Assembly (NCBI RefSeq): GCF_900199375.1
Contig: NZ_LT900217.1
Location: 2,666,001 to 2,730,000 of the forward strand
Reading direction: 5' to 3'
Source: Gordonibacter urolithinfaciens
GTDB lineage: Bacteria; Actinomycetota; Coriobacteriia; Coriobacteriales; Eggerthellaceae
DNA length: 64,000 nt
This document shows, piece by piece, positions 42,880-47,404 of this stretch. How positions within the stretch are numbered: position 1 is the first letter of the stretch; every line of letters begins with the position of its first letter. Made by a program: the position numbers and the translations under genes. The notes under the pieces are model-generated. The model made no database searches, was not told the DNA's origin, and saw only the letters and a program-made list of their open reading frames with translations.

Positions 42880-43662
42880 CTATCGTTGTATCTCGCGCAC
42901 GGGCACGCAGACGCGCACCTTGTCGCCATAGAGGGAGTTGACCTCCACGTCCACGCCGTAGATGGTGCTCACCAGCTCGCGCGTGATGACGTCCTTCGGG
43001 TCGCCGTGCGCGAAGACGCGGCCCTCGTGGATGACGAGGGTTTGGTCGGCGTAGAGGAACGCCTGGTCGGGCTGGTGCGTGGACTGCACGATGCTCAGGC
43101 CCTCGCGGGCCAGCTGCCGCACGCACGACAGCACCCGCACGGTGTTGCCGTAGTCGAGCGCGCTCGTGGGCTCGTCCATGATGATGGTGCGCGCGTTCTG
43201 CGCGATGGCGCGTGCGATGAGCACGAGCTGCTGCTCGCCGCCGGAGATCTGCGTGTAGGGGCGGTGGCCCAGGTGCGCGATGCCGATGCGCTCGAGCGCG
43301 TTCCACGCCTGGTCCACCTGGCCGCGCTTCGGCGTGCCGAACAGGCCCACGCGGCCGCCGGCGCTCATGAGCACCACGTCGAGCACCTCGTAGTTGTACA
43401 CGGGGGCGTGCGACTGGGGGATGTAGGCTATCTCGGAGGCGCGGTCGCGGATGGACAGGGCGCGCAGGTCCTTGCCGTTCACCGTGATGCCGCCCTCCCA
43501 GTTCCTGTTCAGGCACAGGATGCAGCGGAACAGGGTGGACTTGCCCACGCCGTTCGGACCCAGCACGTTCACCAGCGTGTTGTCGGGGATGGAGAACGTC
43601 AGGTCGTGCAGCACCTCGCGGCGCCCGTACGAGAAGCTCAAGTGCTCGACGTCGATGCTCAT
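42880..43662 (-). CDS. FecE-type ABC transporter ATPase
   Basis: A 260-residue ATPase that powers the FecCD-type permease next to it. Motifs are Walker A GPNGVGKST, the Q-loop YIPQSHAP, signature ISGGEQQLVLIARAIAQ, Walker B TIIMDEPTSALD and the switch histidine in VQSTHQPDQ. The ATG complement at 43660-43662 overlaps the permease stop by four bases, which implies coupling. 37 bases separate it from the binding-protein start. Confidence 0.92.
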   Translation of the reverse strand: MSIDVEHLSFSYGRREVLHDLTFSIPDNTLVNVLGPNGVGKSTLFRCILCLNRNWEGGITVNGKDLRALSIRDRASEIAYIPQSHAPVYNYEVLDVVLMSAGGRVGLFGTPKRGQVDQAWNALERIGIAHLGHRPYTQISGGEQQLVLIARAIAQNARTIIMDEPTSALDYGNTVRVLSCVRQLAREGLSIVQSTHQPDQAFLYADQTLVIHEGRVFAHGDPKDVITRELVSTIYGVDVEVNSLYGDKVRVCVPVREIQR

Positions 43663-44636
43663 AGCTGCTTCTTCCTCGTGATGAGGTACAGGAAGAACGG
43701 CGCGCCGATAAAGGCGGTGAGGATGCCGATGGGTATCTCGGAGGTGGTGGCAAGGCGCGCCACATCGTCCACGACGAGCAGGAAGCTGGCGCCCATGAGC
43801 ATGCTGGCCGGCAGGAGCTTGCGGTAGTCGCAGCCGATGACCATGCGGGCGAAATGGGGGATGACGAGGCCCACCCAGCCGATCATGCCCGTGACCGCCA
43901 CGCTGGCGGCCGTCACGAGGGTGGCCGCGAAGATGACCACGATGCGCACGCGCTGCGCGTTCACGCCCATGGTGGACGCCTCGTCGTCGCCCATGGTGAG
44001 GATGTTGATGCGCCACCGGAGGGCGAACAGGACCAGGAGGCCGGCTGCCATGGGCGCTGCGGCCATGGCCAGGTCGGCGGGCTTCGCGCCGGTGAGGCTG
44101 CCCATGAGCCAGTAGGTGATGGCCGCCAGCTGATCGGTGGGGTCGGCGATGAGCTTGGTGTAGGACACGGCCGCCTGCAGAAGCGAGCTCATCATCACGC
44201 CGGCCAGCACCACCACCATCATGTGGTTGCCCTTGGCGCGGCTGCTTACCAAGAGCACCAGCATCACGGTGACGATGGCCGCCGCGAACGCGAACGCGGA
44301 GATGCCGAAGGCCCCGAGTCCCAGGAGGATGGCCACGGCCGCGCCGAACGCCGCGCCCTGCGAGGCGCCCAGGATGTCCGGTGACACGAGCGGGTTCTGG
44401 AACGTGCCCTGGAACGCCGCGCCGGCGGCCGCGAGCGAGCAGCCCACGAGCAGCGCGAGCGCGATGCGCGGCAGGCGCACCTGGAAGAACAGCGTTTCCT
44501 GCTGGGCGGTCCAGAACGGCTCGATGGGCACTACCAGGTTCGCCAGCATGCCCCCGGCCTCGGCCGGCGTGATGGGAAAGCGGCCGAGCATGAGCGAGGC
44601 GAGCGTGGACGCGACCACGAGCACGCCGAGCGCCAC
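43659..44636 (-). CDS. FecCD-type ABC permease, uncertain start
   Basis: A 325-residue permease of the FecCD/BtuC family with about ten helices. Typical stretches are VRLPRIALALLVGCSLAAAGAAFQG, FQNPLVSPDILGASQGAAFGA and GMIGWVGLVIPHFARM. The only in-frame start is GTG at 44636, which lacks a ribosome-binding site and begins inside the first helix. Upstream the frame stays open and reads ASRNQRRRAAIVLV, a proper basic flank, but without a start codon. An ATG at 44695 one frame away (MPTQPDAPR) would join it by a single-base shift near 44675. Either a frameshift or a sequencing error is likely. First gene of the operon. Confidence 0.8.
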   Translation of the reverse strand: MALGVLVVASTLASLMLGRFPITPAEAGGMLANLVVPIEPFWTAQQETLFFQVRLPRIALALLVGCSLAAAGAAFQGTFQNPLVSPDILGASQGAAFGAAVAILLGLGAFGISAFAFAAAIVTVMLVLLVSSRAKGNHMMVVVLAGVMMSSLLQAAVSYTKLIADPTDQLAAITYWLMGSLTGAKPADLAMAAAPMAAGLLVLFALRWRINILTMGDDEASTMGVNAQRVRIVVIFAATLVTAASVAVTGMIGWVGLVIPHFARMVIGCDYRKLLPASMLMGASFLLVVDDVARLATTSEIPIGILTAFIGAPFFLYLITRKKQL

Positions 44637-44756
44637 GAGGACGATGGCCGCGCGCCGCCGCTGGTTGCGCGAGGCGCATCGGGCTGCGTGGGCATCGTCG
44701 CGGGAGGTTTCGCGAGATGCGTCGCACGTGGCGTGGCGGGCGGTTTCGTCCGCGCG

Positions 44757-44807
44757 CCGAGGGGGTACCCCCTCGGCGCCTCTGATGCTTCCAGCATCAG
44801 AGGCGCC
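44757..44807 (-). promoter_or_regulatory. Two stacked palindromes in the leader of the metal-ABC operon
   Basis: Between promoter and permease the leader holds a perfect 15-bp hairpin with a three-base loop (44775-44807, arm GGCGCCTCTGATGCT) abutting a perfect 20-bp palindrome (44757-44776, half CCGAGGGGGT); they share two bases, so the two stems exclude each other at their base. There is no T-run. This could be an attenuator or a translational switch. No cobalamin-riboswitch B12 box is seen. Confidence 0.5.
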
Positions 44808-44887
44808 CTCGTCTCCCCTGAAGGTATGCTCAAGAGCCCCGATCGTCCCCGCCCCCTATAGACTGAAATAAGAATAATACCATAACC

Positions 44888-44916
44888 AATATATCCTAAA
44901 AAATGAATATTATCAA
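44888..44916 (-). promoter_or_regulatory. Strong promoter of the metal-ABC operon
   Basis: On the minus strand TTGATA (44911-44916), exactly 17 bp, then TATATT (44888-44893): the best -35/-10 pair in the window. TGATAAT overlapping the -35 matches one half of the Fur consensus, but the second half is poor. The leader to the permease is about 245 bases. Confidence 0.6.
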
Positions 44917-45010
44917 TTGGGAATATATAAATCGGGAATTGGAAGACGATGGAAAATGGCGGGAAGGGGGTCGATGCGAAAGGGGCGCTATATTCAAAAC
45001 ACCCGCTCTT

Positions 45011-45352
45011 ACTGCCCCTTTGACGCACAATCAGTGATTAGCGCAATCTGCCGACCTTCGCGCGCAGTGGCCCTCGAAACAGCTGCCTAACGCGCGGGGT
45101 ACGCGGTGCCGTGGACAAAAAGGGGCAGTTTTCGTTATTCTGGATAAAAGATAGTTAAAACACCGGGCTTGCTACCAGGTGTTTCGCAAACGCCGCATTC
45201 ACCACTCCTTGATTCCCGCCCAGAATCTATAGATTACCGAGCCTTTTTGTCCATTACCCTTTCGATCATATATTGAGTCGCCGCATGCGCGAGCAAAGCG
45301 CTTTGCGCATGCGGTACGACCGCGATCATCGACTATGCGTCAAAGGGGGAGT
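45011..45352. repeat. AT-rich block with nested inverted repeats, possible MITE-like element
   Basis: ACTGCCCCTTTGACGCA (45011-45027) recurs inverted at 45336-45352 with one mismatch in 17. Inside lies a second, perfect 12-bp inverted pair, TGGACAAAAAGG (45112-45123) and its complement (45242-45253). Further palindromes are AATCTATAGATT (45224-45235) and a 10-bp stem at 45281-45290/45305-45314 overlapping GCAAAGCGCTTTGC (45293-45306). No open frame of any likeness to a protein is seen. The block is much richer in A+T than its surroundings. The rest of the gap (44917-45010 and 45353-45463) shows nothing I can name. Confidence 0.55.
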
Positions 45353-45463
45353 CGGAGCATTCGTTTGAAATAATGAACGAACTTTCCTTTGTCCGGCGGG
45401 AGGGTTCGCCGATGGGCGGCTTGCAAGGCCGGTACGCCCGCGCTGGGAGCGCGCGGGCCCCGC

Positions 45464-46357
45464 CTACGCCCCTGGCCGGGTGATGGACATCATCTGCAGC
45501 GCCTCGCCGAAGAACTGGCCGGCTCCGTTCTGGACGGCGAAGCGGGCCTTGTCGGGGTCGGCCACCACGCTGCCGGCCAGCATCTCCACGCCCCAGTCGA
45601 ACAGGAACGGCGACATGACCACGCTCGGGCCCACCATGACGGTGGTGCCGTTCCTCGTGAGGTCGAGCAGGCGCGGGGCCGTCTTGTTGATGATGGTGAC
45701 GCCGGTGATGAACGTGTAGTCGCTTTTCGGCAGCACGTACTCGCAGGCGGGGTCGGGCGTGTCGAGGGCCTGCGTGCAGTTGCGCTCAAGCACGGTGAGG
45801 TCGGCGTACTCGGCGATGCGGTCGACGTGCGGGAAATGGCCGACCACGGTGACGCGGGCGCGGCCGTCCCCGCCGCGGGCCTCCCCGGCGGCCTCGATGC
45901 GCGGGCGGTACTGCTCGAAGGCGTCGCGCGGCGGCACGCCTCCGCGCGAGCCGCGCTCGGAGCGCTCGACGGGCGGGTCGTACACGGCGCCCAGCGGGTC
46001 GAGCAGGGGCTTCTGCGCGTAGTAGGCGTTGAGGGCCGCCACGCCGAGCGTGGCCTCTTCGAAGCACCACGACTTCGCCAGCTCCGCCACGGCGCGCAGC
46101 GGCAGGCCGCGCAGGTCCATCGTGTGCTTGCGCTTGGCGCCGCCCTTGCAGGTGAAGCTGATGCCCATGCCGCAGTCCGCCTCCACGTAGGACCAGTGCG
46201 TGCCCAAACAGTAGTCGCGGACGACCAGGTCCTTGGGAACGTGCCCTATCAGGTGGTTGTAGAACTTCCACGGCGTGTCGTGGCCGTGCGTGCCGGGGAA
46301 GCTTATAACGTCGTTGCCGGGGTTGTTCGCGCAGCAGTCTTTCTCGGGGCATCCCAT
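45464..46357 (-). CDS. DUF364 family putative metal-chelation protein
   Basis: A 297-residue protein. The C-terminal half has the DUF364 pattern: VTVVGHFPHVDRIAEYADLTVLERN, CEYVLPKSDYTFITGVTIINKTAPRLLDLTRNGTTVMVGPSVVMSPFLFDWGVEMLAGSVV is the core region (split here around residues 205-275). The N-terminal part resembles the DUF4213 domain usually paired with it, preceded by a cysteine-rich start (MGCPEKDCCANN). Relatives sit beside iron, molybdate or other metal ABC transporters and are thought to handle a metal or chelate; the reaction is unknown. The ATG complement at 46355-46357 has AGAGGGACGG upstream. Confidence 0.8.
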   Translation of the reverse strand: MGCPEKDCCANNPGNDVISFPGTHGHDTPWKFYNHLIGHVPKDLVVRDYCLGTHWSYVEADCGMGISFTCKGGAKRKHTMDLRGLPLRAVAELAKSWCFEEATLGVAALNAYYAQKPLLDPLGAVYDPPVERSERGSRGGVPPRDAFEQYRPRIEAAGEARGGDGRARVTVVGHFPHVDRIAEYADLTVLERNCTQALDTPDPACEYVLPKSDYTFITGVTIINKTAPRLLDLTRNGTTVMVGPSVVMSPFLFDWGVEMLAGSVVADPDKARFAVQNGAGQFFGEALQMMSITRPGA

Positions 46358-46510: not shown

Positions 46511-47404
46511 ATGCTGTTCATCTTGACGGGGGGCGTGCAGTCGGGCAAGACGCGCTGGCTCGAGCGTCTGGTTGCCGAGCTGGCGGCCGACGGCGTGGAG
46601 AGCCGCGGCGTGCTGGCGCCCGGCGTGTGGCGCCCGCGCGCGGACGGGGACGATGGCGGCCTGCGTCCGCCCGGGTCGGGAGAGGGGGCCTACGAGAAGC
46701 TGGGCATCGACAACGTGCTGCTGCCCCAGGGCGAGCGCCTGCGCTTCGCCCGCCGCCGCGACCTGGCCGAGCGCGACGGCCAGCTGAACCCGGCCAGCCA
46801 GAGCGCGGCGGCGCAGCTGGCATGGGAGATACCCGGGGAATCCCTCGCACGTGTGAACGCGCACTTCGAGATGCTGGCGAAATCAACCCTTCCCGAGCAA
46901 TGGACGTCCGATGGCGCTGCGGTTTCCACGCGCTCCGGACAACGGGCGCCCAACGCTGCCGTGAATTTTCCGCATTCCGAAAAACGGCCGCCGGATGGAC
47001 GGTCGTTCGAGGAAGCGGCACATGTTTCACGTGAAACATTTGTTCGTAAGGAAGGCGAGGGAGGAGCGGCTGCGCCCGCGGCAGGGGAAAACGCATGCAT
47101 TCCTGCGGTGGGGAGAACCGTGGCTGCCGCGCGCCCTTGGCTGCTCGTGGTGGATGAGCTCGGGCGCTTGGAGCTGGAGCGCGGATGTGGGCTGACCGCC
47201 GCGCTGGACCTGGTGGAACGGGGGCCGGTCCCCGGGTGCCCGCATGCGCTCGTCGTGGTGCGCGCGCGGCTGCGCGATCGCGCCGAGGAGCGCTTCGCCG
47301 CGGCATGGGGCGGCTGCGAGGCGCTCGCGCCCGGCGACGGGGCGCGCAAGGCCGTCCGCCGCGCGTTCGGCCTTGCTTCCCTTATCGATAACGAGTATCA
47401 TTAG
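46511..47404 (+). CDS. THEP1-like nucleoside-triphosphatase with ~80-residue insertion
   Basis: A 297-residue P-loop protein. The ends match THEP1-type NTPases: Walker A GGVQSGKT (7-14), LAWEIPGESLARVNAHFEMLA (104-124) and Walker B PWLLVVDELGRLEL (209-222). THEP1 proteins are about 180 residues; here ~80 residues (about 125-207) of low-complexity, probably disordered sequence separate helix and Walker B. A perfect parS palindrome is read within it as HVSRETF (171-177). Relatives often sit in metal or cofactor loci, in keeping with the divergent DUF364 gene. Function is not proven. An AAGGAAGGGG-like stretch precedes the ATG. Confidence 0.75.
   Translation: MLFILTGGVQSGKTRWLERLVAELAADGVESRGVLAPGVWRPRADGDDGGLRPPGSGEGAYEKLGIDNVLLPQGERLRFARRRDLAERDGQLNPASQSAAAQLAWEIPGESLARVNAHFEMLAKSTLPEQWTSDGAAVSTRSGQRAPNAAVNFPHSEKRPPDGRSFEEAAHVSRETFVRKEGEGGAAAPAAGENACIPAVGRTVAAARPWLLVVDELGRLELERGCGLTAALDLVERGPVPGCPHALVVVRARLRDRAEERFAAAWGGCEALAPGDGARKAVRRAFGLASLIDNEYH
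47022..47039. other. parS, ParB-binding centromere-like site
   Basis: TGTTTCACGTGAAACA (47023-47038) is a perfect match to the bacterial parS consensus bound by ParB/Spo0J; flanking A and T extend the palindrome to 18 bp. It lies inside the coding sequence, in the variable insert of the NTPase. A 16-bp exact match is very unlikely by chance in this window. Confidence 0.8.

Follow-up and report, generated by a model that had tools for sequence, protein, structure and literature searches.

How does an exact centromere site come to lie inside a protein-coding gene of Gordonibacter urolithinfaciens? parS is the 'centromere' of the bacterial chromosome, and as a rule only a few copies of it lie close to the replication origin. 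The window, by which we mean the whole 64-kb stretch of DNA analysed here (positions 2,666,001-2,730,000 of the genome, called G000 below), contains the palindrome TGTTTCACGTGAAACA, an exact match to the parS consensus bound by ParB, at 47023-47038. The enclosing 18-mer, ATGTTTCACGTGAAACAT at 47022-47039, is also exact, so that the first-pass annotation of a perfect parS at 47022-47039 was correct for the 16-mer and the 18-mer alike. This is the sole match with three mismatches or fewer across the 64 kb; when the window was shuffled 100 times, such matches occurred at a mean of 0.11. The site is read in frame as A-H-V-S-R-E-T-F within an ORF of 297 aa (46511-47404), and it is followed on one side by an extension, TTTGTTCG, of the type that we find at sites distal to the origin (see below). 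The features of the locus are as follows.

46511-47404, plus strand: gene for an NTPase_1/THEP1-like P-loop protein of 297 aa, carrying an insert (ORF, Pfam, sibling alignment)
46511-46885, plus strand: N-terminal part of the NTPase (73-74% identity to siblings G074 and G150)
46886-47125, plus strand: lineage-specific in-frame insert, residues 126-205 (low GC3, predicted disordered)
47126-47401, plus strand: C-terminal part of the NTPase (75-76% identity to siblings G074 and G150)
47023-47038, no strand: exact parS, palindrome (consensus match)
47023-47046, plus strand: extended distal-type element, parS followed by TTT, GTTC and G (motif common to distal sites of G000, G070, G136 and G074)
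47042-47045, within the element 47023-47046: one-sided GTTC tetranucleotide

The host protein is a weak match to Pfam NTPase_1 (PF03266; 22.5 bits for a cut-off of 23.9), while two of its orthologues, at 24.1 and 30.4 bits, exceed the cut-off, the first of them narrowly; an NCBIfam search gave no match. Comparison of the gene with its relatives, as proposed in the first-pass annotation, showed that the orthologues in two sibling Gordonibacter genomes, G074 and G150 (their coordinates match those of L011, Gordonibacter sp. Marseille-P2775, and L010, Gordonibacter sp. 28C, respectively), align in two blocks 12 nt apart, one to residues 1-125 and one to residues 206-297, leaving 228 bp extra in the window gene. 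The orthologue in a third sibling, G151, likewise lacks the insert (matches to residues 1-124 and 203-297). The insert has a GC3 of 0.54, vs. 0.90 and 0.85 in the flanking NTPase parts, and AlphaFold2 gives a pLDDT below 50 at residues 130-204, almost its whole length. The earlier description of an in-frame, non-conserved and disordered insert of about 80 residues in a THEP1-like NTPase thus holds, the disorder as a prediction, and the insert is young-looking. The same linker of the orthologous gene carries one exact in-frame parS in G054 and, according to placement from coordinates, two in G030, so that this linker tolerates parS. Of 43 homologue loci inspected, a set that includes the window's own locus and some genomes twice, the remaining 40 have no parS with three mismatches or fewer. 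Beside the NTPase gene, on the minus strand, 42880-46357 encodes a FecCD permease, an ABC ATPase and a DUF364/DUF4213 protein (putative heavy-metal chelation), likely a metal-uptake cluster.

The first-pass annotation had also supposed that the locus may be origin-proximal, and had proposed mapping all parS sites relative to dnaA. In G000, dnaA lies at 1,637,161-1,638,720 and parB at 1,645,170-1,646,225. The window parS, at 2,713,023, is separated from the origin region by 1,071,023 bp out of a possible 1,647,434 (65% down the arm), and so lacks the near-origin location that is usual, though not strict, for chromosomal parS. An origin-proximal reading is ruled out by this map; distance from the origin (1.07 Mb) was one half of what the annotation had itself named as speaking against it, a lack of ParB occupancy being the other. 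The map further revealed 51 exact copies of parS across the 3,294,868 bp of the genome, plus 15 with one or two mismatches (66 in all), where the base composition of the window predicts 6e-5 exact copies; a reversed control pattern had no match in G000. These counts, together with the shuffles, exclude a chance match in the window. They also leave next to no weight for a lone, origin-proximal centromere site brought into, or tolerated in, one gene by insertion: the insert and its parS are real and missing in the siblings, but 50 further exact copies and a distance of 1.07 Mb already refute this idea at the level of the genome map.

The expansion is a property of part of the family. Among 138 genomes of Eggerthellaceae, incomplete ones included, at least 20 exact parS occur in 28 and at least 100 in 10, with a maximum of 148. 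The 28 parS-rich genomes belong to 11 of the 48 genera of the family; genomes of the other genera have 0-14 sites, and a few genomes within the 11 genera are low too (6-15). In a sample of 396 genomes from the phylum, the maximum among the 381 outside Eggerthellaceae was 21. The relevant passages of published work put the number of parS per genome at one to 20 (PMC10197239), or its upper end at 20-23 (PMC7333895) or 22 (PMC5815017), to be compared with 51 here and up to 148 in relatives. We found no report of a parS expansion in Gordonibacter-, Eggerthella- or Coriobacter-type bacteria, or of a union of parS with REP elements, among the papers listed from the open-licence PMC literature, most of them judged by title and the opening of the abstract. 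Both parS and REP are known kinds of sequence; their union and its scale appear to be new. Four exact parS with a regular spacing of 76 bp lie at G199 C1:98884-99127 (genus g90 of the family), as if in a tandem array; pairs of parS spaced 69-75 bp occur at other loci of G199 and in G163; and the IMG/VR viral contig L227 has two exact parS (7176 and 9380), one of them with a distal-type extension.

In several respects the system resembles the chromosomal ParABS systems of Streptomyces, Listeria and Bacillus: the 16-bp consensus is exact, the densest cluster surrounds dnaA and parB, and the main ParB has the key residues for reading the site. The ParB of the window genome matches ParB_N and HTH_ParB. 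Equivalents of R173 and G201, the two key residues for reading parS, and of N178 and R204 (all from PMC7383237) are kept in the ParB proteins of both expanded (10) and canonical (8) genomes, as placed by motif and not by alignment to Caulobacter ParB itself. At positions 170 and 172, the Eggerthellaceae proteins differ from the conserved residues given there, in expanded and canonical genomes alike; no shift in ParB specificity between the two groups is seen at the positions examined. Since the key residues are kept, each exact site should load ParB, to judge from the protein sequences. Sites for a ParB-family protein across the chromosome recall the Noc/NBS system of Firmicutes; here, however, the sites are parS and not NBS, and Noc has Q and R where the main ParB has R and G (PMC7383237, in the same part). 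Second, weaker ParB-like proteins are present in several genomes, expanded and canonical (in G000, at C1:796539).

A few scattered parS have a precedent in B. subtilis, for which PMC8357415 describes eight sites spread across about 0.75 Mb, with a further, weak site at +1058 kb. The sites described here differ in reaching the terminus region and in the form of the distal copies, which have hairpin arms and a one-sided GTTC. We examined the flanks of 50 of 51 sites in G000, 85 of 130 in G070, 15 of 125 in G136 and 10 of 25 in G074. At positions +4 to +7, distal sites have GTTC or, in a looser form, GTNC, usually to one side and rarely to both. In G000, GTNC was found at 28 of the 34 sites more than 20 kb from the origin and at none of the 16 closer ones (Fisher p 1.5e-8), and in G070 at 65 of 79 distal vs. 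1 of 6 near sites (p 0.002). The bases between the parS and the tetranucleotide tend to pair across the palindrome. Among 113 distal sites of G000 and G070, with related and duplicated sites kept in, pairs at +1, +2 and +3 numbered 102, 79 and 63, vs. 87, 52 and 51 in shuffles (P <0.0005, <0.0005 and 0.0035, respectively). Pairing at +4 was not above shuffles, and at +5 to +8 it was below them, the pattern that a tetranucleotide on one side should leave. The pair at +1 is also frequent among sites near the origin (20 of 22 vs. 12.4), so that a hairpin is not confined to distal sites.

Past the motif, flanks resemble one another more than column shuffles do, for the most part owing to doublets and local duplications. 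These excepted, similarity between sites mostly ends at a motif of 30-33 bp, ruling out a long mobile segment around each site. The doublets, 64-67 bp long, consist of two parS spaced 48-49 bp apart, and the spacer that they share includes TTTGTTC-nn-TTRTCGCA. G070 has five such loci, G136 two and G000 one (L046), to which BLAST added a second in G000 (L033); the single doublet of G227 is orthologous to one of the G070 loci and one of the G136 loci.

According to our own crude codon-score gene finder, 43 of 50 sites in G000 and 70 of 85 in G070 are intergenic. Two of the seven non-intergenic sites of G000 overlap a gene's 3' end alone. Other sites fall in protein linkers or tails, where parS is translated as VSRET or FHVKH. 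The peptide (T/A)NVSRET apparently also occurs in frame in other genes, at G000 C1:1801688 (L044) and at G070 C1:72603 and 73179, and would be a site-derived peptide common to unrelated proteins. In G070 a parS at C1:5491 lies in a C-terminal extension, absent in G136 and G227, of a gene close to the origin, possibly recF from its position.

This form brings to mind the REP/BIME elements, which are dispersed, mostly extragenic palindromes with a one-sided tetranucleotide, single or paired, and associated with RAYT; classical REPs are moved by these Y1 transposases. The distal parS share with REPs, as these are generally described, the dispersed and mostly extragenic palindrome, the one-sided tetranucleotide and the occurrence as singles and pairs, the window's own copy being intragenic. 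They differ from them in that the core of the palindrome is the host's own centromere site, in that some copies lie in coding linkers and in that several of the richest genomes have no Y1 transposase. From their form, the distal sites may be copies of a REP-like hairpin. That these are classical REP/BIME elements which have captured parS and are moved by a RAYT is nevertheless a very remote prospect. Y1_Tnp was detected in 4 of 9 expanded vs. 1 of 9 canonical genomes (18 searched), which, along with the architecture, speaks for a RAYT; but it is absent from the expanded genomes G070, G054, G132, G110 and G074, the first three of which have more than 100 parS sites each, and no parS with three mismatches or fewer lies within about 1.5 kb of any of 7 Y1 loci. 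Transposition by a Y1/RAYT enzyme leaves the richest genomes unaccounted for.

A hairpin with covarying arms could also act in RNA, as an intrinsic terminator or another RNA hairpin that happens to share the parS core. The bases past the GTTC side are T-rich, and in G070 the GTNC side is oriented with transcription at 21 of 31 one-sided co-directional sites, with 18 sites in convergent vs. 9 in divergent spacers. In G000, by contrast, direction is even (10 of 20) and convergent and divergent spacers are equally represented (3 and 3). Some sites lie within open frames, and the exact 16-bp ParB site would have to be a coincidence. None of 10 loci had an Rfam match at gathering score, which argues against a known RNA family. 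We consider an element acting at the RNA level highly improbable.

The distribution of sites along the chromosome and between species bears on how the copies arise and persist. The 35 G000 sites more than 20 kb from the origin are non-uniform and origin-biased (KS D 0.41, p 6.6e-6); counting all 51, 40 lie within 500 kb, 1 at 500-1000 kb and 10 beyond, reaching the terminus region. Among the 91 of 130 G070 sites whose positions are listed, 67 fall in the first 800 kb and 24 between 1.34 and 2.93 Mb; the other 39 should lie beyond 2.93 Mb. In Caulobacter, a second parS cluster is best tolerated within about 500 kb of the native one and less so at mid-arm, and in P. aeruginosa parS must be within about 650 kb around the origin, according to the pertinent passages of PMC7333895 and PMC5815017, where experiments are reported to show that extra parS away from the native cluster can reduce fitness. 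The sparse mid-arm of G000, together with some sites at the terminus, recalls the Caulobacter pattern described in that portion of PMC5815017, and a fitness cost of displaced parS could produce the distribution seen. The 10 of 51 G000 sites beyond 1 Mb count against amplification followed by such filtering, and show that distance from the origin does not by itself remove sites.

To follow individual sites, we compared the 26 exact sites at 1-120 kb of G070 with G136: 13 have an exact orthologous partner (two pairs of G070 sites sharing one partner each), 6 have a partner with one or two mismatches and 7 have none. The 7 sites particular to G070 are also missing in G227, where the spacers are similarly short. 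As the aligned parts of G227 are 87% identical to G070 and 90% to G136, the sites turn over between species, gain and loss being indistinguishable with these three taxa. At the G070-only sites the spacer or linker is about 93-388 bp longer, and one pair of sites belongs to a 7-kb island; the window gene, for comparison, is longer by 228 bp. The extra DNA has in most cases no common similarity past the 30-33 bp motif, and no clean insertion of the element alone was seen in the comparisons of G070 with G136 and G227. The longer G070 spacers could also reflect losses on the other branch. The 7-kb segment (G070 C1:38371-45380), absent in G136 and G227, has an exact parS near each end (38530 and 44972), in addition to two near-matches (45007 and 45078).

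These data have to be weighed against a serious rival to copying, namely selection in place: ParB/SMC loading sites would be kept, or mutated into being, because these chromosomes need many of them, the arms and GTTC then belonging to a longer site bound by ParB or a partner and being no trace of copying. The exact G136 partners of 13 of 26 G070 sites, several of them in poorly alignable spacers, fit selection in place as well as they fit copying; the sites also stay exact (51, vs. 15 with one or two mismatches) and are concentrated towards the origin. Three observations weigh on the other side. Covariation of the arm bases is unexpected if a fixed sequence is recognized in double-stranded DNA; doublets with a common spacer of 32-33 bp are found at five non-orthologous places in G070; and the sites clustered at the origin of G000, where ParB activity should be greatest, lack the extension. 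On balance we regard selection in place as unlikely.

The reading that we prefer, with a probability of about 0.6, is an amplification of parS as REP-like, ParB-binding elements, subsequently filtered by selection. The window site would be one copy in a chromosome-wide amplification of ParB sites that has taken place in several Eggerthellaceae genera, here in Gordonibacter. Sites near the origin are mostly plain parS, and those elsewhere mostly have a form of their own, REP-like and asymmetric. In this form the exact 16-bp parS is the core of a hairpin of some 22 bp, and GTTC (GTNC) stands on one side, three bases away from the parS; in some cases two such elements make up a 64-67 bp doublet. 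The copies are found in spacers and in permissive protein linkers, here in a young insert of the NTPase that is predicted to be disordered. From the form of the distal sites we infer that they arose by copying and not by repeated selection in place. Each copy would be occupied by ParB and, through ParB, also load SMC. If this loading is best tolerated near the origin, selection would shape where copies survive, and it may be the cause of the distribution of the distal ones.

A stronger form of this proposal, which we put forward tentatively as a possibility, is a self-spreading centromere: a REP-like family that has the chromosome's own ParB-loading site as its mobile palindrome, spreading ParB/SMC loading in a holocentric-like manner, with selection deciding which copies survive. 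If true, ParB and SMC would load over much of a circular bacterial chromosome. The growth of centromere regions in bacteria and the variation in parS number are open questions, as put in the relevant passages of PMC7333895 and PMC5815017. The hairpin with its one-sided tetranucleotide suggests a concrete way for centromere sites to multiply, and a family whose genera have from a few to 148 exact parS, many of them outside a zone of the kind tolerated in Caulobacter or P. aeruginosa, offers a natural experiment in how SMC is loaded, how collisions occur and how chromosomes fold.
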